Assembly (NCBI GenBank): GCA_938034905.1 | Contig: CALHLF010000005.1 | Coordinates: forward strand, 1-46,953 | Direction of reading: 5' to 3' | Origin: an uncultured bacterium | GTDB lineage: Bacteria; Dictyoglomota; Dictyoglomia; Dictyoglomales; Dictyoglomaceae | Length of the DNA: 46,953 bases | Shown here: piece after piece, positions 515 through 45,550 of the stretch | Layout: every line of letters starts with the position of its first letter | Position numbering within the stretch: position 1 is the first letter of the stretch | Notes under the pieces: model-generated | What the model was told of the DNA's origin: nothing | Seen by the model: only the letters and a program-made list of their open reading frames with translations | The model's database searches: none | Translations under genes and position numbers: made by a program

Positions 515-1498
515 GTGCTTCAATATATTCTCAGAAGACTTCTTTATATGATCCCTACCTTAATATTAATCTCTATTCTTGTTTTTGTAGTTATTCAGCT
601 TCCTCCAGGTGATTTTTTAACCTCATATATTGCCCAATTACAACAAAGTGGTGAATCTGTGGATTTAGAAACTATAGCAGCTTTAAAGGCAAGATATGGA
701 TTAGATAAACCTCTATGGCAACAATATTTTGTTTGGATTTGGAATATGCTTCATGGTGATTTTGGCCGTTCCCTTTTATGGAATAGGCCAGTAAAGGAAT
801 TAATAGGGGAAAGATTGGTATTGACCTTTGTTGTTTCCTTCTGCACTGTTATATTTATTTGGGTAGTATCCTTTATTATTGGAGTTTATGTTGCTACCCA
901 TCAATATTCCTTTGGAGACTATGTTGCTGCAATTTTAGGTTATCTTGGTCTTGCTACTCCAAACTTTATGCTTGCTTTAATTATTCTTTGGTTTGCATAT
1001 GCATATTTTGGACAAAATCTTTCGGGGCTTTTTTCTCCAGAATATTTAGAAGCCCCTTGGAGTTGGGCTAAATTTATAGACATGATGAAACACATATGGG
1101 TTCCTGTGATTATAGTGGGAACTAGTGGAACAGCAGGATTGATAAGAACCCTTAGAGCTAATCTTCTTGATGAATTAAATAAGCCCTATGTTCTAACCGC
1201 AAGAGCTAAGGGATTGCGAGAATGGAAGCTGATTTTTAAATACCCTTTAAGAATAGCTATGATACCCTTCATAAGTACTGTTGGATGGACCCTTCCCTTT
1301 TTAGTTTCTGGCGCTTTAATTAGTTCTATAGTGCTGAATTTACCCATAGTGGGACCTTTATATTTATCCGCTCTACAAAATCAAGACATGTATCTTGCAG
1401 GAAGTTTTCTTCTTTTCTTAAGTCTATTAACTCTTTTAGGCACTTTAATATCTGATATCTTGTTGGCATGGGTAGATCCCCGTATAAGGTTTGAATAA
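515..1498 (+). CDS. ABC importer permease, DppB/OppB type
   Basis: Inner-membrane subunit of a peptide/oligosaccharide-type ABC importer, 327 residues. It has the family layout: an N-terminal membrane helix (about residues 9-29), a long external loop, then a five-helix BPD_transp_1 domain. The EAA loop that docks on the ATPase is visible near residues 220-257 (PYVLTARAKGLREWKLIFKYPLR). It starts at GTG (515) behind GGGGAGG. It is first in a five-gene operon, and its stop overlaps the ribosome binding site of the next gene. In thermophiles such 'oligopeptide' transporters often import oligosaccharides. With a xylanase downstream under the same predicted repressor, xylo-oligosaccharide uptake is the likely role; this is inferred. 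Confidence 0.93.
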   Translation: MLQYILRRLLYMIPTLILISILVFVVIQLPPGDFLTSYIAQLQQSGESVDLETIAALKARYGLDKPLWQQYFVWIWNMLHGDFGRSLLWNRPVKELIGERLVLTFVVSFCTVIFIWVVSFIIGVYVATHQYSFGDYVAAILGYLGLATPNFMLALIILWFAYAYFGQNLSGLFSPEYLEAPWSWAKFIDMMKHIWVPVIIVGTSGTAGLIRTLRANLLDELNKPYVLTARAKGLREWKLIFKYPLRIAMIPFISTVGWTLPFLVSGALISSIVLNLPIVGPLYLSALQNQDMYLAGSFLLFLSLLTLLGTLISDILLAWVDPRIRFE

Positions 1499-1511
1499 GG
1501 AGGTAAAGGTT

Positions 1512-2645
1512 ATGGCAGAGCTAGAAAGAAATGAAGTTATGGAAGAAGTATTAATTGAAAAGGAAGAAGCAATATATTTGGCATCTCAGTGGAAGTTGAT
1601 GTGGTGGAAATTTAAGAGACACAAACTTGCAATTATAAGTGGTATAGTTTTATTAATCTTTTATTTTATTGCTATTTTTGCAGAGTTTGTAGCACCTAAT
1701 GATCCTTATAAATATGATGTAAGATACATTCTTGCTCCTCCCCAAAGAATAAGATTTATAGATGAGAAAGGTTTCCACTTAAGACCCTTCGTGTATGGTT
1801 ACAAATTAGAAATTGATCCTGTTACTCTTAGAAGAATATATATAGAAGATAAATCGAAGAAATATCCTATATACTTTTTCGTGAGAGGGACAGAATATAA
1901 GTTATGGGGATTATTTAAAACAAATATTCATCTTTTTGGAGTTAAAGAAGGACATCTATTTTTATTTGGGACAGACTCTATGGGAAGAGATCTATTTTCA
2001 AGACTTATATATGGAACAAGGATCTCTACAACTGTAGGTTTAGTAGGGGTATTTTTAAGCTTTATTTTTGGAATAATAATTGGGGGAATTTCTGGATATT
2101 TTGGGGGAGCCATAGACAATATAATTCAGCGTATAATTGAGGTAATAATGAGTGTTCCAACCTTACCTTTATGGATGGCACTTTCTGCTGCTGTTCCTCC
2201 CAATTGGTCTCCTGTAAAAGTTTACTTTGCTATCACAATAATTCTTTCCTTTATTGGATGGACAAATTTGGCTAGGGTAGTTAGAAGTAAATTTTTATCT
2301 TTGAGAGAAGAGGATTTTGTAACTGCAGCAAGACTTGCAGGAGCCAGCGAAGCTCGTGTCATTTTTAGACATATGCTTCCCTCCTTCTTAAGTCATATAA
2401 TTGCATCGATAACTTTAGCTATTCCAGATATGATTATTGGTGAAACTTCATTAAGCTTTTTAGGTTTGGGAATAAGACCTCCTGCTATAAGTTGGGGTGT
2501 ATTAATACAGGATGCCCAAAACTTTAGAACTGTTGCCCTTTCTCCTTGGCTATTAATTCCTGTTCTTTTTGTTGTTATAGTTGTACTTGCCTTTAATTTT
2601 GTGGGAGATGGGCTGAGAGATGCTGCAGATCCCTATGCAAGATAA
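1512..2645 (+). CDS. ABC importer permease, DppC/OppC type, with a long external loop
   Basis: Second membrane subunit of the importer, 377 residues. I chose ATG at 1512 because AAGGAGG (1497-1503) lies 8 bases upstream. An in-frame TTG at 1491 lies inside the previous gene and ahead of this ribosome binding site. After a cytoplasmic tail and one helix (near residues 37-55) there is an external loop of more than 100 residues before the conserved FGTDSMGRDLFSRLIYGTR segment, clearly longer than in ordinary DppC proteins. The EAA loop (EDFVTAARLAGASEARVIF) follows in the C-terminal half. The extra loop may contact the equally large binding protein encoded at 4691-6604. Confidence 0.93.
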   Translation: MAELERNEVMEEVLIEKEEAIYLASQWKLMWWKFKRHKLAIISGIVLLIFYFIAIFAEFVAPNDPYKYDVRYILAPPQRIRFIDEKGFHLRPFVYGYKLEIDPVTLRRIYIEDKSKKYPIYFFVRGTEYKLWGLFKTNIHLFGVKEGHLFLFGTDSMGRDLFSRLIYGTRISTTVGLVGVFLSFIFGIIIGGISGYFGGAIDNIIQRIIEVIMSVPTLPLWMALSAAVPPNWSPVKVYFAITIILSFIGWTNLARVVRSKFLSLREEDFVTAARLAGASEARVIFRHMLPSFLSHIIASITLAIPDMIIGETSLSFLGLGIRPPAISWGVLIQDAQNFRTVALSPWLLIPVLFVVIVVLAFNFVGDGLRDAADPYAR

Positions 2646-2657
2646 GGAGGGCAAAAA

Positions 2658-3647
2658 ATGGAAAAGTTATTGGAAATAAAAAATCTTAAAACCTATTTTG
2701 TATTAGAGGAAGGGATAGTAAGAGCAGTTGATGGAATAAGCTTTGAGGTTAAGAGGGGAAAGACCTTAGGAGTTGTTGGAGAATCAGGATGCGGGAAAAG
2801 TGTTACTGCTTTATCCATACTGAGATTAACAGGAGGGAAAAGTAAAATCGAGGGAAATATTCTTTTTTATAAAGATGAGAATGGGACTGAGGTAATTGAT
2901 TTAGTAAAACTTGATCCAAGGGGTCGTGAAATGAGGAGTATAAGGGGAAAGGAAATAGCAATGATATTTCAGGAGCCTATGACCTCCTTTTCTCCAGTAT
3001 ATACCATCGGGAATCAAATTATTGAAGCGATAATTCTTCATCAAAAGATGGATAAGAAAAAAGCAAGGGAATCTGCAATAGAACTTCTTAGAGTTGCGGG
3101 AATTCCAAAACCAGAGATAAGAATTGATGAGTATCCTCATCAATTATCAGGTGGTATGTTACAGAGAGCTATGATTGCCATGGCTCTTTCTTGTAGACCA
3201 TCCCTTTTAATAGCAGATGAGCCTACTACAAACTTAGATGTGACAATACAGGCTCAAATTCTTGAACTTATAAAGGAGTTGCAAAAACTTTTTGGTATGG
3301 CAGTAATGATTATAACTCATAACTTAGGTGTAATAGCAGAGATGGCAGAGGAAGTAATAGTAATGTATTTGGGAAAAATTGTTGAGAGTGCAAAGGTGGA
3401 GGATTTATTTTATGATCCATTACATCCATATACCCAAGCATTATTAGAATCCATTCCCAAAATGGGAAAAAAGACAAAGGAAAGATTGAAGGCGATAAAA
3501 GGTATAATTCCAGACCCATATAATCTTCCTTCTGGATGTACCTTTCACCCAAGATGTTCCAGATATGTAAGAGGTCTATGTGATAAAGAGGTACCAGATT
3601 TAAAGGAAGTAAAGCCAGGGCATAAAGTGAGTTGCTTACTATATTGA
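2658..3647 (+). CDS. ABC importer ATPase, DppD/OppD type
   Basis: Cytoplasmic ATPase that powers the importer, 329 residues. Walker A GESGCGKS is at residues 41-48, the signature LSGGMLQR near 163, Walker [13 protein letters not shown] near 183 and the switch His in IITHNLG. The C-terminal oligopeptide/dipeptide extension with SGCTFHPRC is present, including the Cys-containing motif typical of the OppD/OppF group. The signature has ML where GQRQR is usual, which is common in DppD. GGAGG lies ahead of the ATG and the gene follows the permease by 12 bases. Confidence 0.94.
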
Positions 3648-3660
3648 GAGGTGTAGAAAG

Positions 3661-4674
3661 ATGGAAAGATCTATATTATTAGAGGTGAAGAATTTAAAGA
3701 AATACTTTCCAATAACTAAAGGATTTTTCAAGAGGGAGATAGGTCAAGTAAAGGCAGTAGATGGGATAAGTTTTTTCATAAAAGAAGGAGAGACCCTTGG
3801 ACTTGTTGGGGAGTCAGGATGTGGGAAGACCACAACAGGAAAAACAATTTTAAGGGCATATGATCCCACGGATGGAGATATTATTCTTAACTTAGATGGG
3901 GTAGCGATAAATGTAGCGAAATTAAGGAAGGAAGAGTTGAAAGAAGTAAGGAGATACATGCAAATGGTATTTCAGGACCCATATTCTTCATTAAATCCCA
4001 GGATGACAGTAAGGGAGATAATAGGTGAACCATTATTGGTGAATGGGATAGCAAAGGGGAAGGAGCTTGATGATAGGGTAGCAGACTTAATGAGGAAGGT
4101 AGGATTAAGACCTGAATATATGAGGAGATATCCCCATGCCTTTTCAGGAGGTCAAAGGCAAAGGATAAGTATAGCGAGGGCATTAGCATTGAATCCTAAG
4201 CTTGTAGTGTGTGATGAGCCAGTATCTGCATTAGATGTATCCATACAGGCACAGGTATTAAACTTATTAAAAGATCTACAAGAGGAGTTTCAATTAACAT
4301 ACCTATTCATATCCCATGATTTAGGGGTAGTGGAGTACATATGTGATAGGGTAGCGATAATGTATGTAGGTAAGATAGTGGAGCTTGCGAAGACAGAGGA
4401 GATATTCGAGAATCCAAAGCATCCATACACAGAGGCATTATTATCAGCGGTACCGAAGCCAGATCCGAAGTATAAGATAAGGAGGATACTATTGAGAGGG
4501 GATGTACCCGACGCGTCAAATCCGCCATCAGGATGTTATTTCCATCCCAGATGCAACTATGCAAAAGAGATATGTAAGGAGGTGATGCCAAATTTAGAGG
4601 ACATAGGAGGGAAACATTATGTAGCGTGTCATTTTTCCAAAGAGTTAAGTTTGAGAGGGGTATTAAGTATATAG
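3661..4674 (+). CDS. ABC importer ATPase, DppF/OppF type
   Basis: Partner ATPase of the preceding gene, 337 residues. Walker A GESGCGKT is at residues 50-57, signature FSGGQRQR near 162, Walker [13 protein letters not shown] near 184, and the C-terminal SGCYFHPRC motif is present. The gene follows DppD by 13 bases. Its second half uses GCG for Ala and CCG for Pro more freely than its neighbours, for example in the [10 protein letters not shown] and DASNPPSG segments. This is described as a separate finding. Confidence 0.94.
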
Positions 4675-4690
4675 AAAAGGGGGAGAAAAT

Positions 4691-6604
4691 ATGAAGGTTT
4701 TGAGATTTCTCTTAATTTTCCTTTTATTAAGTGTATTAATAGTAAGTGAAGTAGCGATAGGACAAAAGAGATACAAAGAGGCACCAATGCTTACAGAATT
4801 AGTTAAGGCTGGAAAGCTTCCTCCTGTAGAGCAGAGATTGCCTAAGAATCCTATAGTTGTGAAACCTATGGAAAAGGTTGGAAAATATGGGGGAACTTGG
4901 AGAAGAGCTTGGCTTGGTGCTGGAGATAGATGGGGAATTGCAAAATTGTGTTATGATGCTAATAACCTTTTCCGTTGGAGTAGAGATGTAAAACCTACAC
5001 CATGGCTTGTGGATAAATATGCAGTATCTCCTGATGGAAGAGTTTATACTTTCCATCTTAGAGAGGGATTAAAATGGTCCGATGGTACACCTCTTACCAC
5101 TGATGATGTAATGTTCTGGTACGAGGATATTATTTTGAACGAGGAACTAACTCCAACATATCCTGCTGCTCTTCTCTCTGGAGGGGAGAAAGCAAAATTT
5201 GAGAAAATTGATACCTACACCTTTAGAATTACCTTTAAAAATCCAGCTCCATTATTTATTTATAACTTTGCAGCACAAGGATGGTTTATAGATCACCGTT
5301 TTGGTTCCCTTGGATATTATGCTCCTAAACATTATCTGAAGCAGTTCCATCCTAAGTATACTCCTAAGGAACAGTTGGAGGCTATGGCAAAGAAAGAAGG
5401 ATTTTCAAAGTGGTATGAATTATTCCAATTTAAGATTGATTATATTCAAAATCCAGAACTTCCCACAATGTCACCGTGGAAAGTGGTAAGTAAAAGTCCC
5501 AATGAACCTGTCTACATAATGGAACGAAATCCCTATTATCCAGTGGTAGATACAGAGGGGAATCAATTACCCTATATTGATAGAGTTGTTCACTACTTGG
5601 TAAGTGATGCAGAAATGATCAATATGAAGGCAATAGCAGGAGAAATAGATATGCAGACAAGGCATATTAGACTTCCTAATTATACATTATTCATGCAAAA
5701 TAAAGACAAGGGTGGATATAGGGTATTGAGATGGGGTTCTGGGGTAGGAGCAGATCCCGCTCTTTATCTTAACCAGAATGTTAAAGATCCTGTAAAGAGA
5801 AAATTATTCCAGGATATAAGATTTAGGCAAGCTTTATCTTTAGCAATAAATAGGGACGAAATAAACAAGATGCTTTACTTTGGATTAGGAACCCCAATGC
5901 AGGCAGCAATACCAAAGGGTGGAGCATATTACGACTCAGTATGGGAAAAAACTTATTCTCAATATGATCCAGCAAGAGCTAAAAGAATCTTAGATGCTAT
6001 GGGATTGAAAGTTGGAAAGGATAGATATAGGATTGGACCCGATGGAAAGACTATAGAATTAATTATTGATTTCACAACATATCCAGGAAATGCTAATATG
6101 CAATGTATGGAGTTAATTAAGAGCTATTGGGAAGCTATTGGGATAAAGACCATTGTGAGGCAAATCGAAAGGAGTCTATATACCACCAATTGTAATTCTG
6201 GTGATATTGAAATTGGAGTATGGACCATGGATCGTTGCTCTAACTTTGTTTTAAGTCCTGGAAGAATTCTTGGAACAATAACTGATGGGCCATGGGCACC
6301 GTTATATGCTCAATGGTATTCCACAAAGGGAGCATCAGGAGAGGAGCCTACTGGAGATATTAGAAGGATATATGATCTTTGGGACGAGGTAAATAGAACT
6401 ATAGATGCAAAGCAAAGAGATAAACTTATTAGAGAAATTGTTGCTCTACATAGGAAAAATATCTGGATTATTGGGACCGTAGGAGCCCCACCTCAGTTAG
6501 TTATTGTAAAGAATAATATGAAAAATGTACCTGAGTATGCAATTTGGGATGATCCATTAAGATCTCCATTAATCTCCTATCCAGAACAGTTCTATTTCGA
6601 ATAA
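4691..6604 (+). CDS. ABC importer substrate-binding protein (SBP_bac_5 family)
   Basis: Extracytoplasmic solute receptor for the importer, 637 residues, larger than usual for the family. It has a hydrophobic signal peptide (about residues 4-23, ending near EVAIGQ) with no lipobox cysteine. The YGGTWRRAW segment, the DGRVYTFHLREGLKWSDG segment and RQALSLAINRDEI mark it as family 5 (DppA/OppA). Related proteins in Thermotoga bind xylo-, gluco- or manno-oligosaccharides rather than peptides. The predicted co-regulation with a xylanase supports a xylo-oligosaccharide ligand here, but the sequence alone does not show the ligand. It ends the operon, just before a strong terminator. Confidence 0.92.
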   Translation: MKVLRFLLIFLLLSVLIVSEVAIGQKRYKEAPMLTELVKAGKLPPVEQRLPKNPIVVKPMEKVGKYGGTWRRAWLGAGDRWGIAKLCYDANNLFRWSRDVKPTPWLVDKYAVSPDGRVYTFHLREGLKWSDGTPLTTDDVMFWYEDIILNEELTPTYPAALLSGGEKAKFEKIDTYTFRITFKNPAPLFIYNFAAQGWFIDHRFGSLGYYAPKHYLKQFHPKYTPKEQLEAMAKKEGFSKWYELFQFKIDYIQNPELPTMSPWKVVSKSPNEPVYIMERNPYYPVVDTEGNQLPYIDRVVHYLVSDAEMINMKAIAGEIDMQTRHIRLPNYTLFMQNKDKGGYRVLRWGSGVGADPALYLNQNVKDPVKRKLFQDIRFRQALSLAINRDEINKMLYFGLGTPMQAAIPKGGAYYDSVWEKTYSQYDPARAKRILDAMGLKVGKDRYRIGPDGKTIELIIDFTTYPGNANMQCMELIKSYWEAIGIKTIVRQIERSLYTTNCNSGDIEIGVWTMDRCSNFVLSPGRILGTITDGPWAPLYAQWYSTKGASGEEPTGDIRRIYDLWDEVNRTIDAKQRDKLIREIVALHRKNIWIIGTVGAPPQLVIVKNNMKNVPEYAIWDDPLRSPLISYPEQFYFE

Positions 6605-32594: not shown

Positions 32595-33566
32595 TTAGCC
32601 TCTATTATAATTAAAATTTAAGATTGCTTCCCATTTATCAGAAGATAAAGAATTTCCATCCATTTCCCATGCAATAATTCCTGCCCCAACCACAGGAGGA
32701 ACCTTTAAAATTTCCACCTTTGCTTTAGGGGCAAAAATATGAATCTTTGCAGATATATACTCTTTAAGCCAGTCTGCTCCCTTATATAGGCTTCCTGCAA
32801 GGACAACGGGTGTTTCTTCGTTTATTAAACTTAATCTTTTCATCAAGGCATATACACCTTTTACAGTTTCTTCTACTATTCTTTCTCCAATTTTTTTAGC
32901 AACAAGATCTCCCTCCTCTATAGCTTTAAATAAGAATGGAGCAAGATATAAGGCCTTATGCCATTCTTCATGATGATAATAAAGTTTTTTTGCTAATTCA
33001 TCAAAGTTATTTACTGAAAAAAATTCCAGGACGATTTTCTCTAATACAGTTTTTTCTCCTCTTCCATCATAAGATCGAAAGGCACAATGAAGCATTTCCT
33101 GGACCACAGAAGATGCTCCACCCCAATCTCCAAATATATATCCCTCTCCATAAAATCTAAAACTTTTTCCATCCTTTCTTCTTCCAAAACCATTTGTTCC
33201 TGCACCCATTACTATAATTATTCCCCAGTAATCCTTTGTTCCTGCTCTTAAAGCGATGGCAGTATCATTTTCAATACGAATTTCCTTTGCTATTTTCAAA
33301 GACTCTACTTCTCTTTTAAGCATATCATAATCTTCTGGAAAATCTGCTCCAGCAAGCCCAAAGCATGCCTTCTCAAAACTTATATTTCCTATAAATTTTC
33401 TTGCCTCCTCTATTGCTAATAACCAATTCTTTTTTGCATTTTCAATCCCTAATACCTCATAATTTCCTGGTCCAGATCTTCCAAAACCAATAACCCTTCC
33501 TTCCTCGTTGAGAATAATTGCTTCAGTTTTGCTTCCTCCCCCATCTATTCCCAAATAATATTTCAC
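32595..33566 (-). CDS. BadF/BadG-family sugar kinase, N-acetylglucosamine kinase-like
   Basis: ATP-dependent kinase of the ASKHA fold, 323 residues. It starts YLGIDGGGSKTEAI, the phosphate-1 loop. ENDTAIALRAG and IIVMGAGTNGFG (phosphate-2 loop) follow, then GDWGGASSVVQEML and VVLAGSLYKGADWLKE. These match NagK/BcrAD-type sugar kinases rather than the CoA-enzyme activators, which carry Fe-S cysteines not present here. The gene lies 14 bases after a GH4 glycosidase that needs 6-phosphorylated substrates, so it may phosphorylate an imported disaccharide or amino sugar; this is inferred. Confidence 0.85.
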   Translation of the reverse strand: MKYYLGIDGGGSKTEAIILNEEGRVIGFGRSGPGNYEVLGIENAKKNWLLAIEEARKFIGNISFEKACFGLAGADFPEDYDMLKREVESLKIAKEIRIENDTAIALRAGTKDYWGIIIVMGAGTNGFGRRKDGKSFRFYGEGYIFGDWGGASSVVQEMLHCAFRSYDGRGEKTVLEKIVLEFFSVNNFDELAKKLYYHHEEWHKALYLAPFLFKAIEEGDLVAKKIGERIVEETVKGVYALMKRLSLINEETPVVLAGSLYKGADWLKEYISAKIHIFAPKAKVEILKVPPVVGAGIIAWEMDGNSLSSDKWEAILNFNYNRG

Positions 33567-37306: not shown

Positions 37307-38416
37307 TTATTTATTAAAATAATTTATAAATCCTAAAACTGTAGCTCCTAAGATAAGACTATTTTCACCAAGATTTGAGGGGTAAAAAACTATTTTTGTC
37401 CTTAGTTGTGGAAAGATTTTGGAAAGAATATATTCTTTAATTTTTTCAGTTATATATTTCAAACCTTCTAAAGAAAGATTACCTGAGACACAAACTGCTT
37501 GGGGTGGAAATATTTGGATGACGTTTGCTAAAGAGATTCCTAAATATTTAAGAGCTTTATCCAAACTTTCTATTTTTTCTCCTCTTATAGCATTTTCAAG
37601 AATTTCATTTATATCAGAAGATTTATCATAATTTTCAATAATTATAGGGATAGATGCAACAGTTTCTAAACATCCCTTTTTACCACACCAACAATCCTTT
37701 CCATCTATTTCTATAATGGTATGACCTATTTCTCCAATAATCCCATCATATCCATCTAATACTCTATCATTTAGATAAATCCCCAATCCTATCCCCTTGC
37801 TTAACAAAAGATAAAAGAAATTTCTATAATTTCTTCCCTCTCCATACCAATTTTCTGCTAAAATGCCAGCATTTGTATCCTTTTGCATATAAAAGGGTAA
37901 AGGAAAAATTTTATTTATGATCTCCCTTAAATTTACATCCTTCCAATTTAAACTTGTGGATAATATTACCCTTCCTGAGCTAAGTTCCAGAAGCCCAGGA
38001 ATAGATGCAGAAATAGCAATAATTTTATCTTTAAAGGGTTCGTATAATTCTTGTATTAACTTAAGAAGGTCTTCGATATTTTTCATTTTTATAGAATAAA
38101 TCTTTAGTATATTTCCCATAGGATTTACTATCGCTCCCTTTATATAAATTCCTGAAAGGTCTAAAGCCAATACCAAAAGATCGGGATTTATAGCAAGCTT
38201 TATGGGTCTTCTACCTCTACGGGTATTAACCCTTCCCAATTCCACTATGAAATTCTTGGATAAAAGCTCCTCAATAATCTCTGTTATTGCAGTTTTTGTA
38301 AGCTTTGTAATACGAGAGAGTTCTGCCCGAGATTTTGGCCCTTGTTTCATTAATACTTCAAGAACTAAATTTTTATTATAACTTCCCACATGCTTTGGTG
38401 TTCTTCTTTCTTTCAT
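37307..38416 (-). CDS. ROK-family transcriptional regulator (NagC/XylR type)
   Basis: Sugar-responsive repressor, 369 residues. An N-terminal winged helix (LEVLMKQGPKSRAELSRITKLTKTAITEIIEELL, about 17-52) precedes a ROK kinase-like domain. GIGLGIYLNDRVLDGYDGIIGEIGH and the zinc motif CWCGKKGCLE identify the ROK fold. The phosphate-binding segment is DLSGIYIKGAIVN rather than DxGGT, so sugar-kinase activity is unlikely, as in NagC and Mlc. It faces the second ABC importer with interlocked promoters, making that operon and itself the likely targets. The sugar effector is unknown. Confidence 0.92.
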   Translation of the reverse strand: MKERRTPKHVGSYNKNLVLEVLMKQGPKSRAELSRITKLTKTAITEIIEELLSKNFIVELGRVNTRRGRRPIKLAINPDLLVLALDLSGIYIKGAIVNPMGNILKIYSIKMKNIEDLLKLIQELYEPFKDKIIAISASIPGLLELSSGRVILSTSLNWKDVNLREIINKIFPLPFYMQKDTNAGILAENWYGEGRNYRNFFYLLLSKGIGLGIYLNDRVLDGYDGIIGEIGHTIIEIDGKDCWCGKKGCLETVASIPIIIENYDKSSDINEILENAIRGEKIESLDKALKYLGISLANVIQIFPPQAVCVSGNLSLEGLKYITEKIKEYILSKIFPQLRTKIVFYPSNLGENSLILGATVLGFINYFNK

Positions 38417-38517: not shown

Positions 38518-39561
38518 GTGGTAAGAATCTATAATACTCTGAAAAGGATAAGTAAAAATGTAATCTTAAGGAGATTTATAAAGTCAATTTTTACAATCTT
38601 TGTAGTTGTTTCTCTCACTTTCTTTATAATAAGACTTATGCCTTCAAATCCAATTCAAATTTATATAAACCAATTAATATCCCAGTATGGAATGACTTAT
38701 AAAGAAGCAGAAGCATTAGCTGCATCACTATTCTCTATTGATCTTAAAAAGCCTTTAATTCTACAATATTTTGATTTTTTAAAAAATCTTTTCAGAGGAG
38801 ATTTAGGAATATCTTTTCTATCTCGAGGAACAAAAGTAACTTCAATTATAAAAGAGTTTCTTCCATGGACTCTATTTAGTGTTGGGGTTTCTCTACTTAT
38901 TAGTTTTACCCTTGGAATTATAATTGGAATGTTTATTGCTTACAAGAGAGGAAGCAGTATAGATGTTATTATTACAAGCATCGCGTCTATATTAAGTTCT
39001 ATTCCCAATTATCTTATTGGAATTATGATCTTAGTTTTTGTAGGAGTTCAATGGAAGTTAATTCCCATCGAAGCTATGAGGGGATCTTTATCTCCTGGAG
39101 TAAAACCTGGGTTTACATGGACCTTCATAAAAGATGTTTTCTTTCATGCTTCTATGCCTATCCTTACCTATGTTATTAGTACCATTGGAGGTTGGATCCT
39201 TACAATGAAAAGTAGCACTTTATCCACCTTAGGAGAAGATTATGTAATGGTGGCAAAAGCAAGAGGGTTAAAAGAAAGTAGGATAACCTTCTCCTATGTA
39301 GGAAGAAATGCTATTTTGCCTCTTTTTACCAGTCTTACTATTTCCTTAGGTTTTATAGTTGGAGGATCTGTATTAATTGAGAGTATCTTTGTTTATAAAG
39401 GTATTGGATGGGTTCTTTGGAGTAGTATCTCTTCAAGAGATTATCCAGTGATGCAAGGGGTTTTTCTAATAATAACTGTTTCAGTAATTATGGCAAATTT
39501 ATTGGCAGATTTATTATATAGTAGACTTGATCCAAGAATTAGAATTACAGGGGGAGAATAA
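38518..39561 (+). CDS. ABC importer permease, DppB/OppB type (second system)
   Basis: Membrane subunit of the second peptide/oligosaccharide-type importer, 347 residues. It starts at GTG behind GGGAGGAA. A charged cytoplasmic N terminus precedes the first helix (about residues 23-43). SIDLKKPLILQYFDFLKNLFRGDLGIS is the standard external segment, and the EAA loop EDYVMVAKARGLKESRITFSYVGRNAILP lies near 240-268. It ends GSRLDPRIRI-like, as in the family. First gene of a six-gene operon under the ROK promoter region. The cargo is probably a glycan fragment, given the neighbouring glycosidases. Confidence 0.92.
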   Translation: MVRIYNTLKRISKNVILRRFIKSIFTIFVVVSLTFFIIRLMPSNPIQIYINQLISQYGMTYKEAEALAASLFSIDLKKPLILQYFDFLKNLFRGDLGISFLSRGTKVTSIIKEFLPWTLFSVGVSLLISFTLGIIIGMFIAYKRGSSIDVIITSIASILSSIPNYLIGIMILVFVGVQWKLIPIEAMRGSLSPGVKPGFTWTFIKDVFFHASMPILTYVISTIGGWILTMKSSTLSTLGEDYVMVAKARGLKESRITFSYVGRNAILPLFTSLTISLGFIVGGSVLIESIFVYKGIGWVLWSSISSRDYPVMQGVFLIITVSVIMANLLADLLYSRLDPRIRITGGE

Positions 39562-40448
39562 TGGATAAAAAAATAAGAAAAATTCATTTAATTTTAGGCT
39601 CCTTAAGGGATACTTTTAGATTATTAAAAAGAAATAAAGTAGGTTTTGCAGGATTTATTATCTTGATTTTTATTATATTAATGTCCTTTATTGGTCCATA
39701 TATAGTTCCCTTTGATACCACATCAAGATTAGACAAGATATATGTGAAACCCTCTTGGGAACATCCTTTAGGGACTGATAGTCAGGGAAGAGATATTCTT
39801 GCTCAAATAGTGCATGGAGGAAGAGATGTCCTTGTCGTTGCCTTTCTTACAGGATTTCTTTCCACATTAATTGCCATAAGTTTGGGATCTTTAAGTGCCT
39901 TTATTGGAGGAAGATTTGATTCCATGATCACAAGTTTGGCAGATATTGTCTTAACTATACCCCATTTTCCCCTTCTTTCCGTTTTAGCAGCATTTGTTAA
40001 ATTAAAAAATCCCCTTATGATAGCTTTTATTCTTGCTCTTCTCTCTTGGCCAGGACTTCTAAGAGCGGTAAGGGCACAAGTCTTATCCCTAAAAGAGAGA
40101 GATTTTATAGAAGCTGCGCGTGCTTTAGATTTAGGAACACCTTATATTGTATTTTCAGAAATTCTTCCCAATATGATGAATTATATAGTAATAAGTTTTA
40201 TTCTCTCTATGACCTCTGCAGTTTACGCTCAGGTGGGATTGATCCTTTTAGGACTTGTCCCATTAGCAACTCATAATTGGGGAGTCATGATAAATTTTGC
40301 ATGGACCCGAGGTGCTATATTTTATAAACATAGTATTTACTATATTCTTTCCCCAATATTTGCTATATCTCTTTTTCAGTGGTCCTTAGTTTCCTTTACT
40401 CGTTCCTTAGAGGAGATATTTAATCCTAGGTTAGGTCAAGGAGCGTAA
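39561..40448 (+). CDS. ABC importer permease, DppC/OppC type (second system)
   Basis: Partner permease, 295 residues, the normal DppC length, unlike its counterpart in the first importer. It has one N-terminal helix (about 27-50), the motif LGTDSQGRDILAQIVHGGRDVL, a five-helix core, and the EAA loop RDFIEAARALDLGTPYIVFSEILPN. The ATG shares a base with the previous stop (TAATG), so translation is coupled. Confidence 0.92.
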   Translation: MDKKIRKIHLILGSLRDTFRLLKRNKVGFAGFIILIFIILMSFIGPYIVPFDTTSRLDKIYVKPSWEHPLGTDSQGRDILAQIVHGGRDVLVVAFLTGFLSTLIAISLGSLSAFIGGRFDSMITSLADIVLTIPHFPLLSVLAAFVKLKNPLMIAFILALLSWPGLLRAVRAQVLSLKERDFIEAARALDLGTPYIVFSEILPNMMNYIVISFILSMTSAVYAQVGLILLGLVPLATHNWGVMINFAWTRGAIFYKHSIYYILSPIFAISLFQWSLVSFTRSLEEIFNPRLGQGA

Positions 40449-40450
40449 AA

Positions 40451-41449
40451 ATGGAAAATATTTTAAAAATAGAAGATCTTTATATAGAATATAAGGCAAG
40501 AAGGGGCTTAGTTAAAGCAGTAAGGGGAGTTGATTTAGATCTTTATAAAGGAGAAACCCTTGCAGTTATAGGGGAAAGTGGATCGGGAAAGACCACCCTT
40601 GGATTGTCTATAATAAAACTCTTACCCTCTTCTGCAAGAATATCCCAAGGGAAAATTTGGTATCAAGGGAATGGGAAAAAATATGAGATTGTTAGTTTAG
40701 ATAATAGTAGACTCAGAAAATTTAGATGGAAAGAGATTGCAATGGTCTTTCAATCTGCTCTTAATGCCTTTAATCCTGTAATAAAAATTTGGGATCATAT
40801 AGTTGATACTGCGGAATCCCATGATATAAAAATGACAAGGGAAGAGTTAAGGGTAAAGGTTTTAGAGCTTTTAAGATTGGTTCAGTTGGATCCAGAAAGG
40901 GTATTGAAATCCTATCCCCATGAACTATCAGGAGGAATGAGACAAAGGGTATTGATTGCTTTAGCCTTACTTTTAGATCCTCAAATTATAATTCTTGATG
41001 AACCTACAACTGCCTTAGATATTCTAAGTCAAAGAAGTATATTGGAACTTTTGAAAAAGATTAAAGAAAAATTAAATCTTTCTATTATATTAATATCCCA
41101 TGATTTATCCTTAGCTGCAGAATTAGCAGATAGAGTTGCGGTAATGTATGCAGGAAGTTTGGTGGAGGTAGGTTCAGTTTATGATATTTTCTATAAACCT
41201 CTTCATCCATATACCATGGGACTTATAAGGGCAGTTCCCACTGTAACAGCATCTATGAGGGAGCTTATATCTATTCCAGGATCACCTCCAGATCTTATTA
41301 ATCTTCCTGAAGGATGTAAGTTTCATCCCCGATGTGAATATAAGATAGAGGAATGTCTTAAGGAAGAACCTAAATTGATTAAAGCCTCTTATAATCATTA
41401 TACTGCATGTATTAGATGGGAGAATATAAGAAATGGAAAAAATAATTGA
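40451..41449 (+). CDS. ABC importer ATPase, DppD/OppD type (second system)
   Basis: ATPase of 332 residues. Walker A GESGSGKTT (near residue 43), signature LSGGMRQR, Walker B IIILDEPTTALD, switch His in LISHDLS, and the C-terminal EGCKFHPRCEYK motif. It follows the permease by 2 bases and overlaps the next gene by 17 bases. Confidence 0.93.
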   Translation: MENILKIEDLYIEYKARRGLVKAVRGVDLDLYKGETLAVIGESGSGKTTLGLSIIKLLPSSARISQGKIWYQGNGKKYEIVSLDNSRLRKFRWKEIAMVFQSALNAFNPVIKIWDHIVDTAESHDIKMTREELRVKVLELLRLVQLDPERVLKSYPHELSGGMRQRVLIALALLLDPQIIILDEPTTALDILSQRSILELLKKIKEKLNLSIILISHDLSLAAELADRVAVMYAGSLVEVGSVYDIFYKPLHPYTMGLIRAVPTVTASMRELISIPGSPPDLINLPEGCKFHPRCEYKIEECLKEEPKLIKASYNHYTACIRWENIRNGKNN

Positions 41450-42431
41450 ATTGAAAAATATTAGTAAATTTTTTACCATTGGTGGGGGTTTCTTTACTCC
41501 TAAAAAAACCCTAAGGGTTTTGGAGAATTTAAATCTTTCCATTGGAAAAGGTGAAATATTCTGTCTTGTAGGAGAGTCTGGATGTGGAAAGACTACAACG
41601 GGAAAACTCATTGCAGGACTTTTAAAACCAACATCTGGTGAGATTCTCTTTTATGGAAAAGATATATGGAAAATGGGTAAAGAAGAGTTTAAAACTTATA
41701 GAAGATCTGTACAGATTGTTCATCAAGATCCATACTCTTCCTTAAATCCTATAAAGACTGTCTATGATATACTCAGTACTCCTTTATTGAAACATCATAT
41801 AGTAAGGAGTAATGGACAGTGTGAGGAAAAAATTTCAGAGCTTCTGAAAATTGTGGACCTAACTCCTGTAGAGGATTTTATATACAAATATCCCCATCAA
41901 CTTTCTGGTGGGCAGAGACAAAGAGTTGTTATTGCGAGGGCTTTAACTTTAAATCCCGAATTTATCGTAGCAGATGAAGCAGTATCAATGTTAGACGTTT
42001 CTATAAGATTAAGTATTATAAAACTACTGCTCTCATTGAAGAAGAATTTTGATATGACTTTTCTATTTATTACCCATGATCTTGCTATGGCAAAATACTT
42101 TGGATGGAGTGGAAAGATTGGGGTTATGTATTTAGGAAGACTTGTAGAAATTGGCCCAACTCCAAAGGTATTAGAAAATCCTTTACATCCATATACAAAA
42201 GCCCTACTTCTTGCAGTTCCCGAAGCAGATCCGGAAGTTACAAGAAGTAAAAAGGTTATGGAGTTAAGAAGTCTTGATCTTCCAAGTCTCTTAAATCTTC
42301 CACCTGGGTGTAGATTTAGTAATCGCTGTCCCTTTATGGAGCCTGGAAGATGTGACAAAATAGAGCCAAATCTTTATGAGTTGGAGCCAGAGCACTATGT
42401 TGCCTGTGAACTATATGGTGAGAAAGTATGA
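41433..42431 (+). CDS. ABC importer ATPase, DppF/OppF type (second system)
   Basis: ATPase of 332 residues. Walker [10 protein letters not shown], signature LSGGQRQR, Walker B FIVADEAVSMLD, switch His in FITHDLAMAKYF, and C-terminal PGCRFSNRCPF. Walker B has DEAVSMLD rather than DEPVSALD, a mild variant that keeps the catalytic Glu. The start overlaps the previous gene by 17 bases, and the stop overlaps the ATG of a small membrane-protein gene. Confidence 0.93.
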   Translation: MEKIIELKNISKFFTIGGGFFTPKKTLRVLENLNLSIGKGEIFCLVGESGCGKTTTGKLIAGLLKPTSGEILFYGKDIWKMGKEEFKTYRRSVQIVHQDPYSSLNPIKTVYDILSTPLLKHHIVRSNGQCEEKISELLKIVDLTPVEDFIYKYPHQLSGGQRQRVVIARALTLNPEFIVADEAVSMLDVSIRLSIIKLLLSLKKNFDMTFLFITHDLAMAKYFGWSGKIGVMYLGRLVEIGPTPKVLENPLHPYTKALLLAVPEADPEVTRSKKVMELRSLDLPSLLNLPPGCRFSNRCPFMEPGRCDKIEPNLYELEPEHYVACELYGEKV

Positions 42432-42607
42432 ATGCTGAAATTCCAAAGTCTGTCTTTAAAATTGGTTTTTTTATATCTTTTCTCTCAGGGATATTAATAC
42501 CCTTTTTAGAGATGGGAACGGCAACTTTTGTTGTAGATGTTTTAGCCTTTATTTCAGGCTCTTTGATTATGCTTCTCTCCCTTTTCTTAAGAAAATATTT
42601 CAAATGA
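42428..42607 (+). CDS. Small two-helix membrane protein in the ABC operon
   Basis: An open frame of 59 codons starts with an ATGA overlap on the ATPase stop and ends in TGA at 42605. The protein starts MNAEIPKSVFKIG and has two hydrophobic segments (about residues 11-27 and 33-52) separated by an acidic turn (FLEMG), with a basic end (LRKYFK). The tight overlap, the lack of any other frame and a 76-base gap before the binding-protein gene support a real gene. I do not recognise a family. It may be an accessory subunit or assembly factor of the importer. Confidence 0.68.
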   Translation: MNAEIPKSVFKIGFFISFLSGILIPFLEMGTATFVVDVLAFISGSLIMLLSLFLRKYFK

Positions 42608-42683
42608 GGGGGTGAGAAAATTTTAACATATTAGGACTTTCTCTTCTTTAGCTTCCTAAAAATTAATAAAGGGGGTCAAAGAA

Positions 42684-44411
42684 ATGAGACGTTTGATAAT
42701 TTTAGTTATTCTGTTAGGTATTCTAACAGTAGGGTTTTCTTCAACAGAAAGAGTTTTTGTAGGGGCTTGGCCCTATGATATGCCACCAGTGGGACATTTC
42801 AATACTTTTGTAGCAAGAGCTATAACCCTTGGTATTTACTACGAATTAATGCATCAACCTTTGGCATTTTATTACTGGGCAACAGGAAAATACGAACCAC
42901 TCCTTGCAACTAGTTGGCGTCTTGAACCTACTAATAAACCTGAATGGTTTGTAGTCCATTTGAGAAAAGGTGTTAGATGGAGCAATGGTCAAGAATTTAC
43001 ATCAAGGGATGTTGTAGCTACATACTATATTGGATATCTCATGAATTGGCCCATTTGGAGATACATTGATAAAGTAGAAGGAGTAGGAAATTATACTGTA
43101 AGATTTCATATGAATAACCCATCTTCTGTAGTACCAAGATATGTTTTAAGAACATATCCAATTAGAGATTATTCCACATTTGGAACTTATGCGGATAGAG
43201 TAAGAGCTCTTCTTGCCCAAGGTAAGGACAGAGATTCTGATGAGATGAAAAAGTTAAGAGCAGAATTTGAACAATTTAGACCAAAGAGTATTATAGCTTC
43301 TGGGCCATTTGTATTAAATGTAGATACTATGACAGAGGCAGAGGTAATTCTTGAAAGAAATCCATATTATTGGAATCAGGAAGCAATTAAATTTGATAAA
43401 GTAAGATTAGTAAATGGAGAAACTCCAACGGTAACTCCAATGGTTCTTGCAAAGAATGTAGATTATGCTACTCATGGTTTCCCACCTGCAACAGAGAAAC
43501 AATTTATAGAGATGGGAATAAGAATTATAAGACCACCTATTTATTCTGGACCTGCAATATTTATAAATCACAATATTTATCCATTAAATAGAGTAGAAGT
43601 AAGGCAAGCAATGGCCTATGCTATAAATAGGGATGAGAATGGATATGTATCCCTTGGAAAGTCTGGAGTTGGAGTAAAACTTATGGCAGGGTTTAGTGAC
43701 AACATGATTCCACTATGGATTTCTGAAAGTGATCAAAAGAAACTTAATAAATATGAATATAATCCTAAGAAGGCAGAAGAAATATTAACTAAGTTAGGAT
43801 TCAAGAGGGATAAAGATGGGGTTTGGATAGATGATAAAGGAAAGAGAATGGAATATGAGCTAATTGTTCCTGCAGAATTTGCAGACTGGTCAGCTGCTGC
43901 AGAAAATGCTGCATCACAATTAACAAAATTTGGAATAAAGGTGACTGTTCGTGGAGTAACCTTTGCTCAAGTTCCTCAAGAGGCAGAACAAGGAAGATTC
44001 CAATTATTGATACAGGCATGGGGTGCAGCCCATCCTCATCCTCATTTCTCCTTCTACCAAGATTTTATCAGATTTAACTATCCTCTTGGGGTAGGACCTG
44101 GAATGAATTTCCCCATGAAACAAAAGACAAAAGCAGTAGGAGAAGTAGATTTAGATAAATTGATAACTGACTCTGCAGTAGGATTTGATATGAAACTCCA
44201 AAAGAAATATATAACTACCCTTGCTTTAGCATTTAATGAATTACTCCCTATAATTCCTCTTTGGGAGCGTTATGGAAATAATCCCTCATTAGAAGGGGTA
44301 AGGGTAACAGGATGGCCACCTGAAGGGGATCCAATTTACAAGAATAGTCCATACTCTGACAGCTTTGTTATAATCATGCTAACAAAGGGTATACTAAAAC
44401 CTGCTAAGTAA
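42684..44411 (+). CDS. ABC importer substrate-binding protein (SBP_bac_5, second system)
   Basis: Extracytoplasmic receptor of 575 residues. Signal peptide at about residues 1-19 (cleavage near GFSS), with no lipobox Cys. Family 5 features: YEPLLATSWRLEP, WFVVHLRKGVRWSNGQEFTSRDVVATY, FVLNVDTMTEAEVILERNPYYW and VEVRQAMAYAINRDE. The aromatic-rich sequence is compatible with sugar binding, but the ligand cannot be read from it. AAAGGGGG lies ahead of the ATG. Last gene of the operon, before a strong terminator. Confidence 0.92.
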   Translation: MRRLIILVILLGILTVGFSSTERVFVGAWPYDMPPVGHFNTFVARAITLGIYYELMHQPLAFYYWATGKYEPLLATSWRLEPTNKPEWFVVHLRKGVRWSNGQEFTSRDVVATYYIGYLMNWPIWRYIDKVEGVGNYTVRFHMNNPSSVVPRYVLRTYPIRDYSTFGTYADRVRALLAQGKDRDSDEMKKLRAEFEQFRPKSIIASGPFVLNVDTMTEAEVILERNPYYWNQEAIKFDKVRLVNGETPTVTPMVLAKNVDYATHGFPPATEKQFIEMGIRIIRPPIYSGPAIFINHNIYPLNRVEVRQAMAYAINRDENGYVSLGKSGVGVKLMAGFSDNMIPLWISESDQKKLNKYEYNPKKAEEILTKLGFKRDKDGVWIDDKGKRMEYELIVPAEFADWSAAAENAASQLTKFGIKVTVRGVTFAQVPQEAEQGRFQLLIQAWGAAHPHPHFSFYQDFIRFNYPLGVGPGMNFPMKQKTKAVGEVDLDKLITDSAVGFDMKLQKKYITTLALAFNELLPIIPLWERYGNNPSLEGVRVTGWPPEGDPIYKNSPYSDSFVIIMLTKGILKPAK

Positions 44412-44434: not shown

Positions 44435-44480
44435 AAAAAGCCTCCTGGGAGAGCTAATCTTGTCTCTCAGGAGGCTTTTT
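44435..44480 (+). terminator. Strong terminator of the second ABC operon
   Basis: 18-bp stem with one G-U pair, AAAAAGCCTCCTGGGAGA (44435-44452) with TCTCTCAGGAGGCTTTTT (44463-44480), 10-base loop. Its base AAAAAGCCTCC is the same as in the terminator at 15865. Confidence 0.94.
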
Positions 44481-44497
44481 AAATTTATTTTAAGATG

Positions 44498-44503
44498 TAA
44501 AAT
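44498..44503 (+). promoter_or_regulatory. Possible -10 of the chromate transporter genes
   Basis: TAAAAT, ending 10 bases before the ATG at 44514, with no convincing -35. The spacing matches the leaderless radical SAM gene. Confidence 0.3.
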
Positions 44504-44513
44504 TAAAATTGTT

Positions 44514-45044
44514 ATGAATTGTTGGGAATTATTTTTTGTTTTTATAAAGATAGGTTGGCTTACCCTTGGTGGAGGATATGTAATGATACCTCTTTTTTTA
44601 GAAGAAATTGTAAAGAAGAGGAAATGGCTAAAAGAAGAGGAATTTTTGGAAATACTGACTTTAGCTCAACTCTTTCCTGGTCCCATAGCCTTTAATTTTG
44701 CAGTGGCAGTGGGATATAGATTAAAAAAAACTAAAGGCGCATTAATAAGTGCTTTAGGAGTTGTTCTTCCTTCTTTTATCTCAATTTTAGTAATTGCAAT
44801 TTTTTTAATTAGATGGCAGAAAAATAGAATAGTGCAGGGATTTTTTTATGGTATAAGACCTGCAATTGCAGGTCTTATGGTTTATAGTGTTTATGAACTT
44901 TTTAAAAAATTGAATCTTACTTTATCTAAGATTTCTATTATTTTCCTCTTATCTTTTATATTAATATTTTTTAAAATTAATCCTATGTATATTATTCTTG
45001 TTTCCTTAGGGATTAGTATATTATGGGTATATTGGGGACATTAA
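44514..45044 (+). CDS. Chromate transporter family, first short subunit
   Basis: Inner-membrane protein of 176 residues with one CHR domain: FIKIGWLTLGGGYVMIPLFLEEIV, then AQLFPGPIAFNFAVAVGYR, the conserved PGP segment. Short CHR proteins work as pairs, equal to one two-domain ChrA that exports chromate or exchanges it with sulfate; other substrates are possible. I start at ATG 44514. The frame is open further upstream, but those codons lie in the terminator of the previous operon. No ribosome binding site is visible. It overlaps the second subunit by 22 bases. Confidence 0.87.
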   Translation: MNCWELFFVFIKIGWLTLGGGYVMIPLFLEEIVKKRKWLKEEEFLEILTLAQLFPGPIAFNFAVAVGYRLKKTKGALISALGVVLPSFISILVIAIFLIRWQKNRIVQGFFYGIRPAIAGLMVYSVYELFKKLNLTLSKISIIFLLSFILIFFKINPMYIILVSLGISILWVYWGH

Positions 45045-45550
45045 TTAAAGTATTTTTCTTGATAGGTCTCTTAGGATTTGGTGGTGGTTATGCCATTATA
45101 GCCCTTATAAGACATTTTGTTGTAATAGAGGAGAAATGGCTTACTAATATTCAATTTATAGATGTTCTTGCAATTTCTCAAATTACTCCCGGTCCTATAG
45201 CTATAAATTCTGCTACATTTATAGGATATAAGATAGGGGGAATCTTAGGTTCAATATTGGCTACTATTTCCTCAATTCTTGCTCCTTTTATTTTAGTCTA
45301 TTACTCTTCTTATTTTTTCCATAAAATTAATAGTGGAAATTTTTCAAAAATATTATCCTATTTAAGACCTATGACCTTTGCCCTTGTAATTTCAGCTACC
45401 TATAATATTCTTCTAGATTCAATAATTGATTGGAAAGGAGTAATTTTATTTTTATTATCCTTATTTCTTTGCTGTAAGACTAACTGGAACTTTCTTCTTC
45501 GAATTTTCATAGTGGCATTATTGGGGGAAATTATTTACTTTTTAACCTGA
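45023..45550 (+). CDS. Chromate transporter family, second short subunit
   Basis: Second CHR-domain protein, 175 residues: FFLIGLLGFGGGYAIIALIRHFVV, then ISQITPGPIAINSATFIGYKIGG. The two subunits share the domain but differ in sequence, as expected for an antiparallel heteromeric pair. Its ATG is 22 bases inside the first gene, so translation is probably coupled. Convergent with the liaF-like gene. Confidence 0.88.
   Translation: MGILGTLIKVFFLIGLLGFGGGYAIIALIRHFVVIEEKWLTNIQFIDVLAISQITPGPIAINSATFIGYKIGGILGSILATISSILAPFILVYYSSYFFHKINSGNFSKILSYLRPMTFALVISATYNILLDSIIDWKGVILFLLSLFLCCKTNWNFLLRIFIVALLGEIIYFLT

Follow-up and report, generated by a model that had tools for sequence, protein, structure and literature searches.

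Few ABC importers have been studied as much as those of the Opp/Dpp class, which are regarded as machines of five parts. Does one clade of them carry a sixth part? The question is raised by a 46,953-nucleotide stretch of DNA from an uncultured bacterium of the Dictyoglomaceae (contig CALHLF010000005.1), hereafter the window. A reading made from the sequence alone had picked out in it an unannotated frame of 59 residues that overlaps the preceding ATPase gene by an ATGA and lies between this gene and a receptor gene. The coordinates and the overlap were confirmed, and the receptor gene does follow, with its start at 42684 (Table 1). Judged by its Pfam domains, the surrounding operon (38518-44411) is an ordinary Opp/Dpp-type importer operon composed of the five usual genes, i.e., two permeases, two ATPases and an SBP_bac_5 receptor, plus the small gene. 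Nothing comparable had been seen in the window's first importer (515-6604), and indeed no small gene stands between its ATPase gene, which ends at 4674, and its receptor gene, which starts at 4691.

Table 1. Positions of the operon genes, the small gene and related features; coordinates refer to the window unless a genome, contig or locus is named.
Feature	Coordinates	Strand	Basis or remark
Divergent ROK-type gene, NagC/Mlc-like, possible regulator	37307..38416	-	Match does not reach the NCBIfam cut-off; G005 has an ortholog at the equivalent place
First permease, BPD_transp_1_N + BPD_transp_1	38518..39561	+	Pfam
Second permease, OppC_N + BPD_transp_1	39561..40448	+	Pfam
First ATPase, DppD/OppD-like	40451..41449	+	ABC_tran + oligo_HPY
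Second ATPase, DppF/OppF-like	41433..42431	+	ABC_tran + oligo_HPY; the small gene follows its clade
ATGA shared by the second ATPase gene (stop) and the small gene (start)	42428..42431	+	Overlap common to G005 and several homologous operons
59-aa two-helix predicted membrane protein, proposed accessory subunit	42428..42607	+	Frame, homologs, AlphaFold2 model, dN/dS
Receptor, SBP_bac_5, GAWPYxxPPxGHxN type common to homologous operons	42684..44411	+	Pfam
Diverged two-helix candidate, window's genome	G000:C79:658-840 (L143, L146)		At 3' end of second ATPase gene
Diverged two-helix candidate, G005	G005:C20:14392-14571 (L147)		At 3' end of second ATPase gene
DUF218-like gene	L052:6822-7388, L097:5763-6335		Pfam-confirmed
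DUF218-like gene	L098:5729-6358, L099:11542-12111, L100:9939-10508		Similar sequence start

One way to account for such a frame within the usual parts list is as a piece split off from a permease, since a hairpin encoded beside the permease genes could supply helices that they are missing. However, both permeases match the N-terminal domain models (BPD_transp_1_N and OppC_N) as well as the full-length core domain, which makes this origin very unlikely. Because the canonical domains are complete in the permeases and likewise in both ATPases, the hairpin would be an addition to the importer and not a replacement. The C-terminal end of the second ATPase (42270-42420) also bears a cysteine-containing segment, GCRFSNRC...GRC...AC; similar segments are reported to bind a [4Fe-4S] cluster in Escherichia coli DppD/DppF (PMC12136057). 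Beyond the receptor gene come two hydrophobic genes side by side (44460-45550; 194 and 175 aa), which by eye resemble a split chromate-transporter pair.

The frame runs from an ATG at 42428 to a TGA at 42605-42607 (59 codons), ends 76 nt before the start of the receptor gene and encodes MNAEIPKSVFKIGFFISFLSGILIPFLEMGTATFVVDVLAFISGSLIMLLSLFLRKYFK. When the region is modeled as a first-order Markov chain, the probability that a given frame stays open for 58 codons by chance is ~0.009. A rate of ~0.9% is appreciable genome-wide; thus, length alone is weak evidence that the frame is a gene, and conservation decides. The sequence-only reading had named a broken frame in close relatives as the outcome that would refute it, and none was seen: the genus-mate G005 carries the frame intact, in the same place and with the same ATGA, at 78% amino acid identity. 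Between the two copies, dN is 0.127 and dS 1.21, and the resulting dN/dS of 0.105 indicates that the small gene is under purifying selection. Differences at codon positions 1, 2 and 3 number 11, 3 and 26, respectively. An antisense frame is also open across this stretch, and its third positions coincide with those of the sense frame; therefore, the third-position excess cannot separate the two. Sense coding is favored because almost no changes fall at sense position 2 and because homologs exist. That the stretch is a chance open frame and no gene is scarcely credible, given that amino acid sequence, position and overlap are kept in the genus-mate and that homologs occur in a second phylum. The stretch is a conserved protein-coding gene, and it is probably translationally coupled to the second ATPase gene upstream. 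The second ATPase of G005 is 92% identical to that of the window, and the remaining Dictyoglomota matches reach ~50% at most; the other five of the seven Dictyoglomota genomes contain no close ortholog of this ATPase, i.e., the operon is absent from them.

The encoded protein had been described as two hydrophobic helices with a basic tail. In keeping with this, AlphaFold2 run on the single sequence places helices at residues 7-28 and 32-58 (mean pLDDT 85.7), the C-terminal tail RKYFK is basic, and the protein is predicted to be a helical hairpin. Averaged over 25 members of the family, basic residues number 1.44 in the N-terminal tail, 0.32 in the turn and 2.32 in the C-terminal tail; the turn averages 1.4 acidic residues, and the helix-to-helix spacing is invariant. 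By the positive-inside rule, this charge distribution suggests that both ends are cytoplasmic and that the turn, PF(L/Q)(E/D)xx(S/T)AxF, points outward, to the side of the membrane on which the receptor docks. Residue 34 (F34) is aromatic in all 25 members, and G44 and R55 are each found in 22 of them; for a hairpin this short, constancy of this kind suggests protein-protein contact. The hairpin family, as defined on alignment A7, comprises proteins that match the profile, have a length of ~59-62 residues and are encoded behind the second ATPase of the clade, and the window's protein combines all three features.

A single-sequence search of genome contigs with the 59-aa protein gave no match, as the protein is too short and too diverged. 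Weak matches in G001, G003, G004 and contig C7 of the window's genome (E 0.02-0.2) cross stop codons and overlap unrelated genes, and they were rejected. A scan with the receptor yielded one distant relative (L038), in a MAG of Thermoflexus hugenholtzii (G007), and a small-protein search of this genome returned a 64-codon frame outside the importer operon (E 2e-4). Profiles built from this match (alignments A4 and A5) were run over 151 and then 400 Chloroflexota genomes, of which 24 carry a clear homolog (E about 1e-9 to 1e-30). Weak profile matches at L079-L081, L083 and L084 fall inside long frames of other proteins and were set aside.

In 19 of the 24 genomes, the small gene is located directly 3' of a counterpart of the second ATPase gene, and in the other five it is relocated. 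In the 19, the ATPase ahead of it shares about 47-58% identity with the second ATPase of the window, and the order first permease, second permease, first ATPase, second ATPase, small gene recurs; in most cases a receptor gene of the same type as in the window comes next. Within one Chloroflexota class, 15 of 177 genomes possess the small gene; nine of these were newly found, all with the gene between ATPase and receptor. The sequence-only reading had proposed looking for the same frame in orthologous operons, and across the two phyla covered, Dictyoglomota and samples of Chloroflexota, this search has led to G005 and to a total of 28 Chloroflexota genomes with the small gene directly behind the second ATPase. 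With few exceptions, its start codon lies at -4 to +21 nt relative to the stop of the ATPase gene, and the 4-nt overlap is retained in L053, L054, L055, L088 and L094. Four offsets fall outside this range (-11, -43, -58 and -112); for at least -58 and -112, an artefact of automated start-codon calling is the probable cause. In one Chloroflexota class, several genomes also have a DUF218-like gene 3' of the receptor gene (Table 1).

With the ATPase as query and a match limit of E 1e-105, fixed before the result was seen, the ATPase clade was detected in 23 of the 400 genomes, the small gene in 24 and both in 22 (Fisher p 7e-33, computed on related genomes whose counts are not independent). The small gene thus co-occurs with one ATPase clade, and the exceptions are mild. 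In G112, the small gene is present and the ATPase is cut by the contig end; in G215, the small gene directly follows a more distant ATPase (304 bits); and in G322, whose assembly measures 2.2 Mb versus 3.3-3.5 Mb in the nearest relatives in the ATPase tree, the ATPase occurs without a detected small gene. Small hydrophobic proteins of such size include membrane toxins, and on size and hydrophobicity the protein could be taken for an importer-independent passenger, e.g., a toxin-like or stress protein, present in the operon by chance. This is highly improbable in view of its faithful linkage to one ATPase clade in two phyla, almost always at one copy per importer; in addition, the small protein had no match in phage and plasmid collections.

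Five related genomes (G007, G172, G196, G244 and G273) keep both genes with the small gene outside the operon. In these relocated loci (L056, L085, L086, L087 and L076), the ABC ATPase gene ahead of it is a different one (about 30% identity), which in L056 has a BPD_transp_1 permease gene beside it. The four loci that were read share a gap of 65-107 nt and a TACACT motif ahead of the small gene, and this gap has the look of a promoter of its own. Since the relocated loci share one context, they probably stem from a single relocation event, and the relocation shows that the small gene can be retained without linkage. Overall, the view of the small protein as conserved and importer-linked is well supported.

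The small membrane protein may also occur beyond the window's importer, in a second importer of the same genome. A profile search of Dictyoglomota yielded in G005 a frame (L129) behind the ATPase of another importer, and in both the window's genome and G005 another Opp-type importer has a diverged two-helix candidate that overlaps its second ATPase gene at the 3' end or comes after it. The copy on contig C79 of the window's genome, MEYAVKNKFGAQILVLVFVIIMGILWLIFWRRRGTEMYLTIASIFISLTTLFLIMKYKSLK, is 60% identical to the G005 copy. Comparison of the candidate with the first family by hhalign gave E 1.1e-4 and a probability of 57%; against 3000 shuffles that keep hydropathy, the G005 copy outscored all and the C79 copy all but 31. 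This is suggestive of kinship with the small-gene family. In a FastTree phylogeny rooted at the midpoint, the ATPase of the C79 importer groups with those of the window and of Chloroflexota, apart from all other Dictyoglomota Opp ATPases in the tree (support 0.989), and G003 has an ATPase of the same clade and no detectable small gene. Thus, the small gene marks one Opp clade, within which it can be absent. Profile searches of Dictyoglomota revealed no further family member in other Opp loci.

What might the hairpin do? With moderate confidence, we favor the reading in which it is an accessory membrane subunit of one Opp/Dpp importer clade, joining the two permeases, two ATPases and receptor as a sixth component. 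The earlier assignment of a small membrane protein to the importer has held up in that the gene is conserved in its operon position; its status as a physical subunit we infer from sequence. In such an importer, both ends of the hairpin would lie in the cytoplasm and the turn would face the receptor side. Less certainly, the hairpin may pack, perhaps transiently, against the permease pair, and by analogy with the action of CbiN on CbiM it could stabilize this pair or tune the hand-over between receptor and permeases. Extended to its fullest form, the proposal would be that importers of the whole clade, across two phyla or more, are built of six components, with a permease-bound hairpin that gates or tunes receptor docking, similar to CbiN and evolved independently of ECF importers; this extension is tentative, and we would sooner doubt it than rely on it.

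Several observations tell against a subunit. In G003, an ATPase of the clade is present and no small gene is detectable, so the protein can be dispensable, and solved Dpp importers function without it (PMC12136057). The five relocated copies behind another ABC ATPase could reflect a more general role. Small membrane proteins often serve larger ones as helpers, and the main rival explanation places the hairpin among these, as an importer-linked regulator or an assembly or quality-control factor that assists in the insertion, protection or turnover of the permeases, or that links the importer to another membrane protein. Its retention without linkage and its loss in G003 would be expected of a helper no less than of a subunit, and sequence does not separate the two. 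The gene order and the tight coupling to the second ATPase, however, are more typical of stoichiometric parts, and we regard the helper as unlikely, although it deserves to be taken seriously.

The neighborhoods of related operons give some indication of the cargo. The closest solved relatives of the window's receptor are the SBP_bac_5 proteins 1zty, 1vr5 and 4pft (E about 1e-24 to 1e-18), receptors for chitin oligosaccharides and sugars that are distant from it in sequence and for which, as far as the open-access literature found goes, no small subunit is described. We take 1vr5 and 4pft to be Thermotoga receptors. Peptidoglycan and amino-sugar genes cluster with importers or receptors of the window's type at L052, L091, L095, L101, L038 and L037. 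For example, NamZ, GH3, a BadF-type kinase, YdjC and a beta-lactamase-fold hydrolase are encoded near the importer at L052, and NagA and SIS genes are neighbors at L091 and L095. In Thermomicrobium roseum (L101, NC_011961.1 684589-703770), the neighbors include nagA, an anhydro-N-acetylmuramic acid kinase, a beta-N-acetylhexosaminidase and BadF; the receptor there, 54% identical to that of the window, is carried on a megaplasmid, with two permease genes and no ATPase genes annotated beside it. A GH3 gene adjoins L038, and in G005 a BadF gene lies directly behind the receptor. In the window itself, the NagC/Mlc-like ROK gene and a BadF-like gene (32595-33566) are present. Based on these neighboring genes, the cargo in several relatives is probably a peptidoglycan-derived amino sugar (MurNAc/GlcNAc); the same cargo is only suggested for the window's importer. 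This gene context also points to a candidate route for the uptake of peptidoglycan fragments in Chloroflexota.

Comparison with known families returned little. The small protein had no match above cut-off in Pfam or NCBIfam and none in the PDB, whether by sequence profile or by fold, and six members compared with Pfam and NCBIfam gave no match to CbiN. Matches to SecE, DUF2975, Cap15_TM and other families were weak, all below cut-off and inconsistent between members. In the open-access literature, no paper was found that names a small membrane protein of Opp importers. What is new, then, is probably a small membrane component, so far undescribed, that one clade of Opp/Dpp importers has in addition to the usual parts. 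If a sixth component is real, a part has been overlooked by gene finders and in structural studies of model species, and the hairpin would offer a tractable case of a tiny protein that modulates an ABC importer. With its clear sequence hallmarks and fixed gene position, the family can be searched for in any genome and is open to direct testing.

Three known systems place this proposal in context. E. coli DppABCDF has the same parts, namely a pair of BPD_transp_1 permeases, a pair of ABC_tran + oligo_HPY ATPases and an SBP_bac_5 receptor, and it is described as comprising five subunits (PMC12136057), whereas the operon type of the window conserves a sixth, small membrane gene. The five-subunit description agrees with the remark in the sequence-only reading that no small subunit is known for the Dpp/Opp class (PMC12136057). 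In Agrobacterium, YejBEF-YepA is reported to be an ABC transporter that imports peptidoglycan fragments (PMC9790009). Importers of the window's type may share this cargo, which is here suggested by the neighboring genes of relatives alone. To our knowledge, no small subunit has been noted for YejBEF-YepA. The closest parallel is CbiN of the CbiMNQO cobalt ECF importers, which, like the predicted hairpin, is small, has two helices and is encoded with an ABC-type importer. The loop of CbiN is far longer than the turn of the hairpin. CbiN consists of two helices with a short extracytoplasmic loop, acts on CbiM and binds only transiently (PMC7689651). The partners of the two proteins differ: CbiN is encoded with CbiM, CbiQ and CbiO of an ECF importer, whereas the hairpin is encoded with Opp-type genes that include a soluble receptor.
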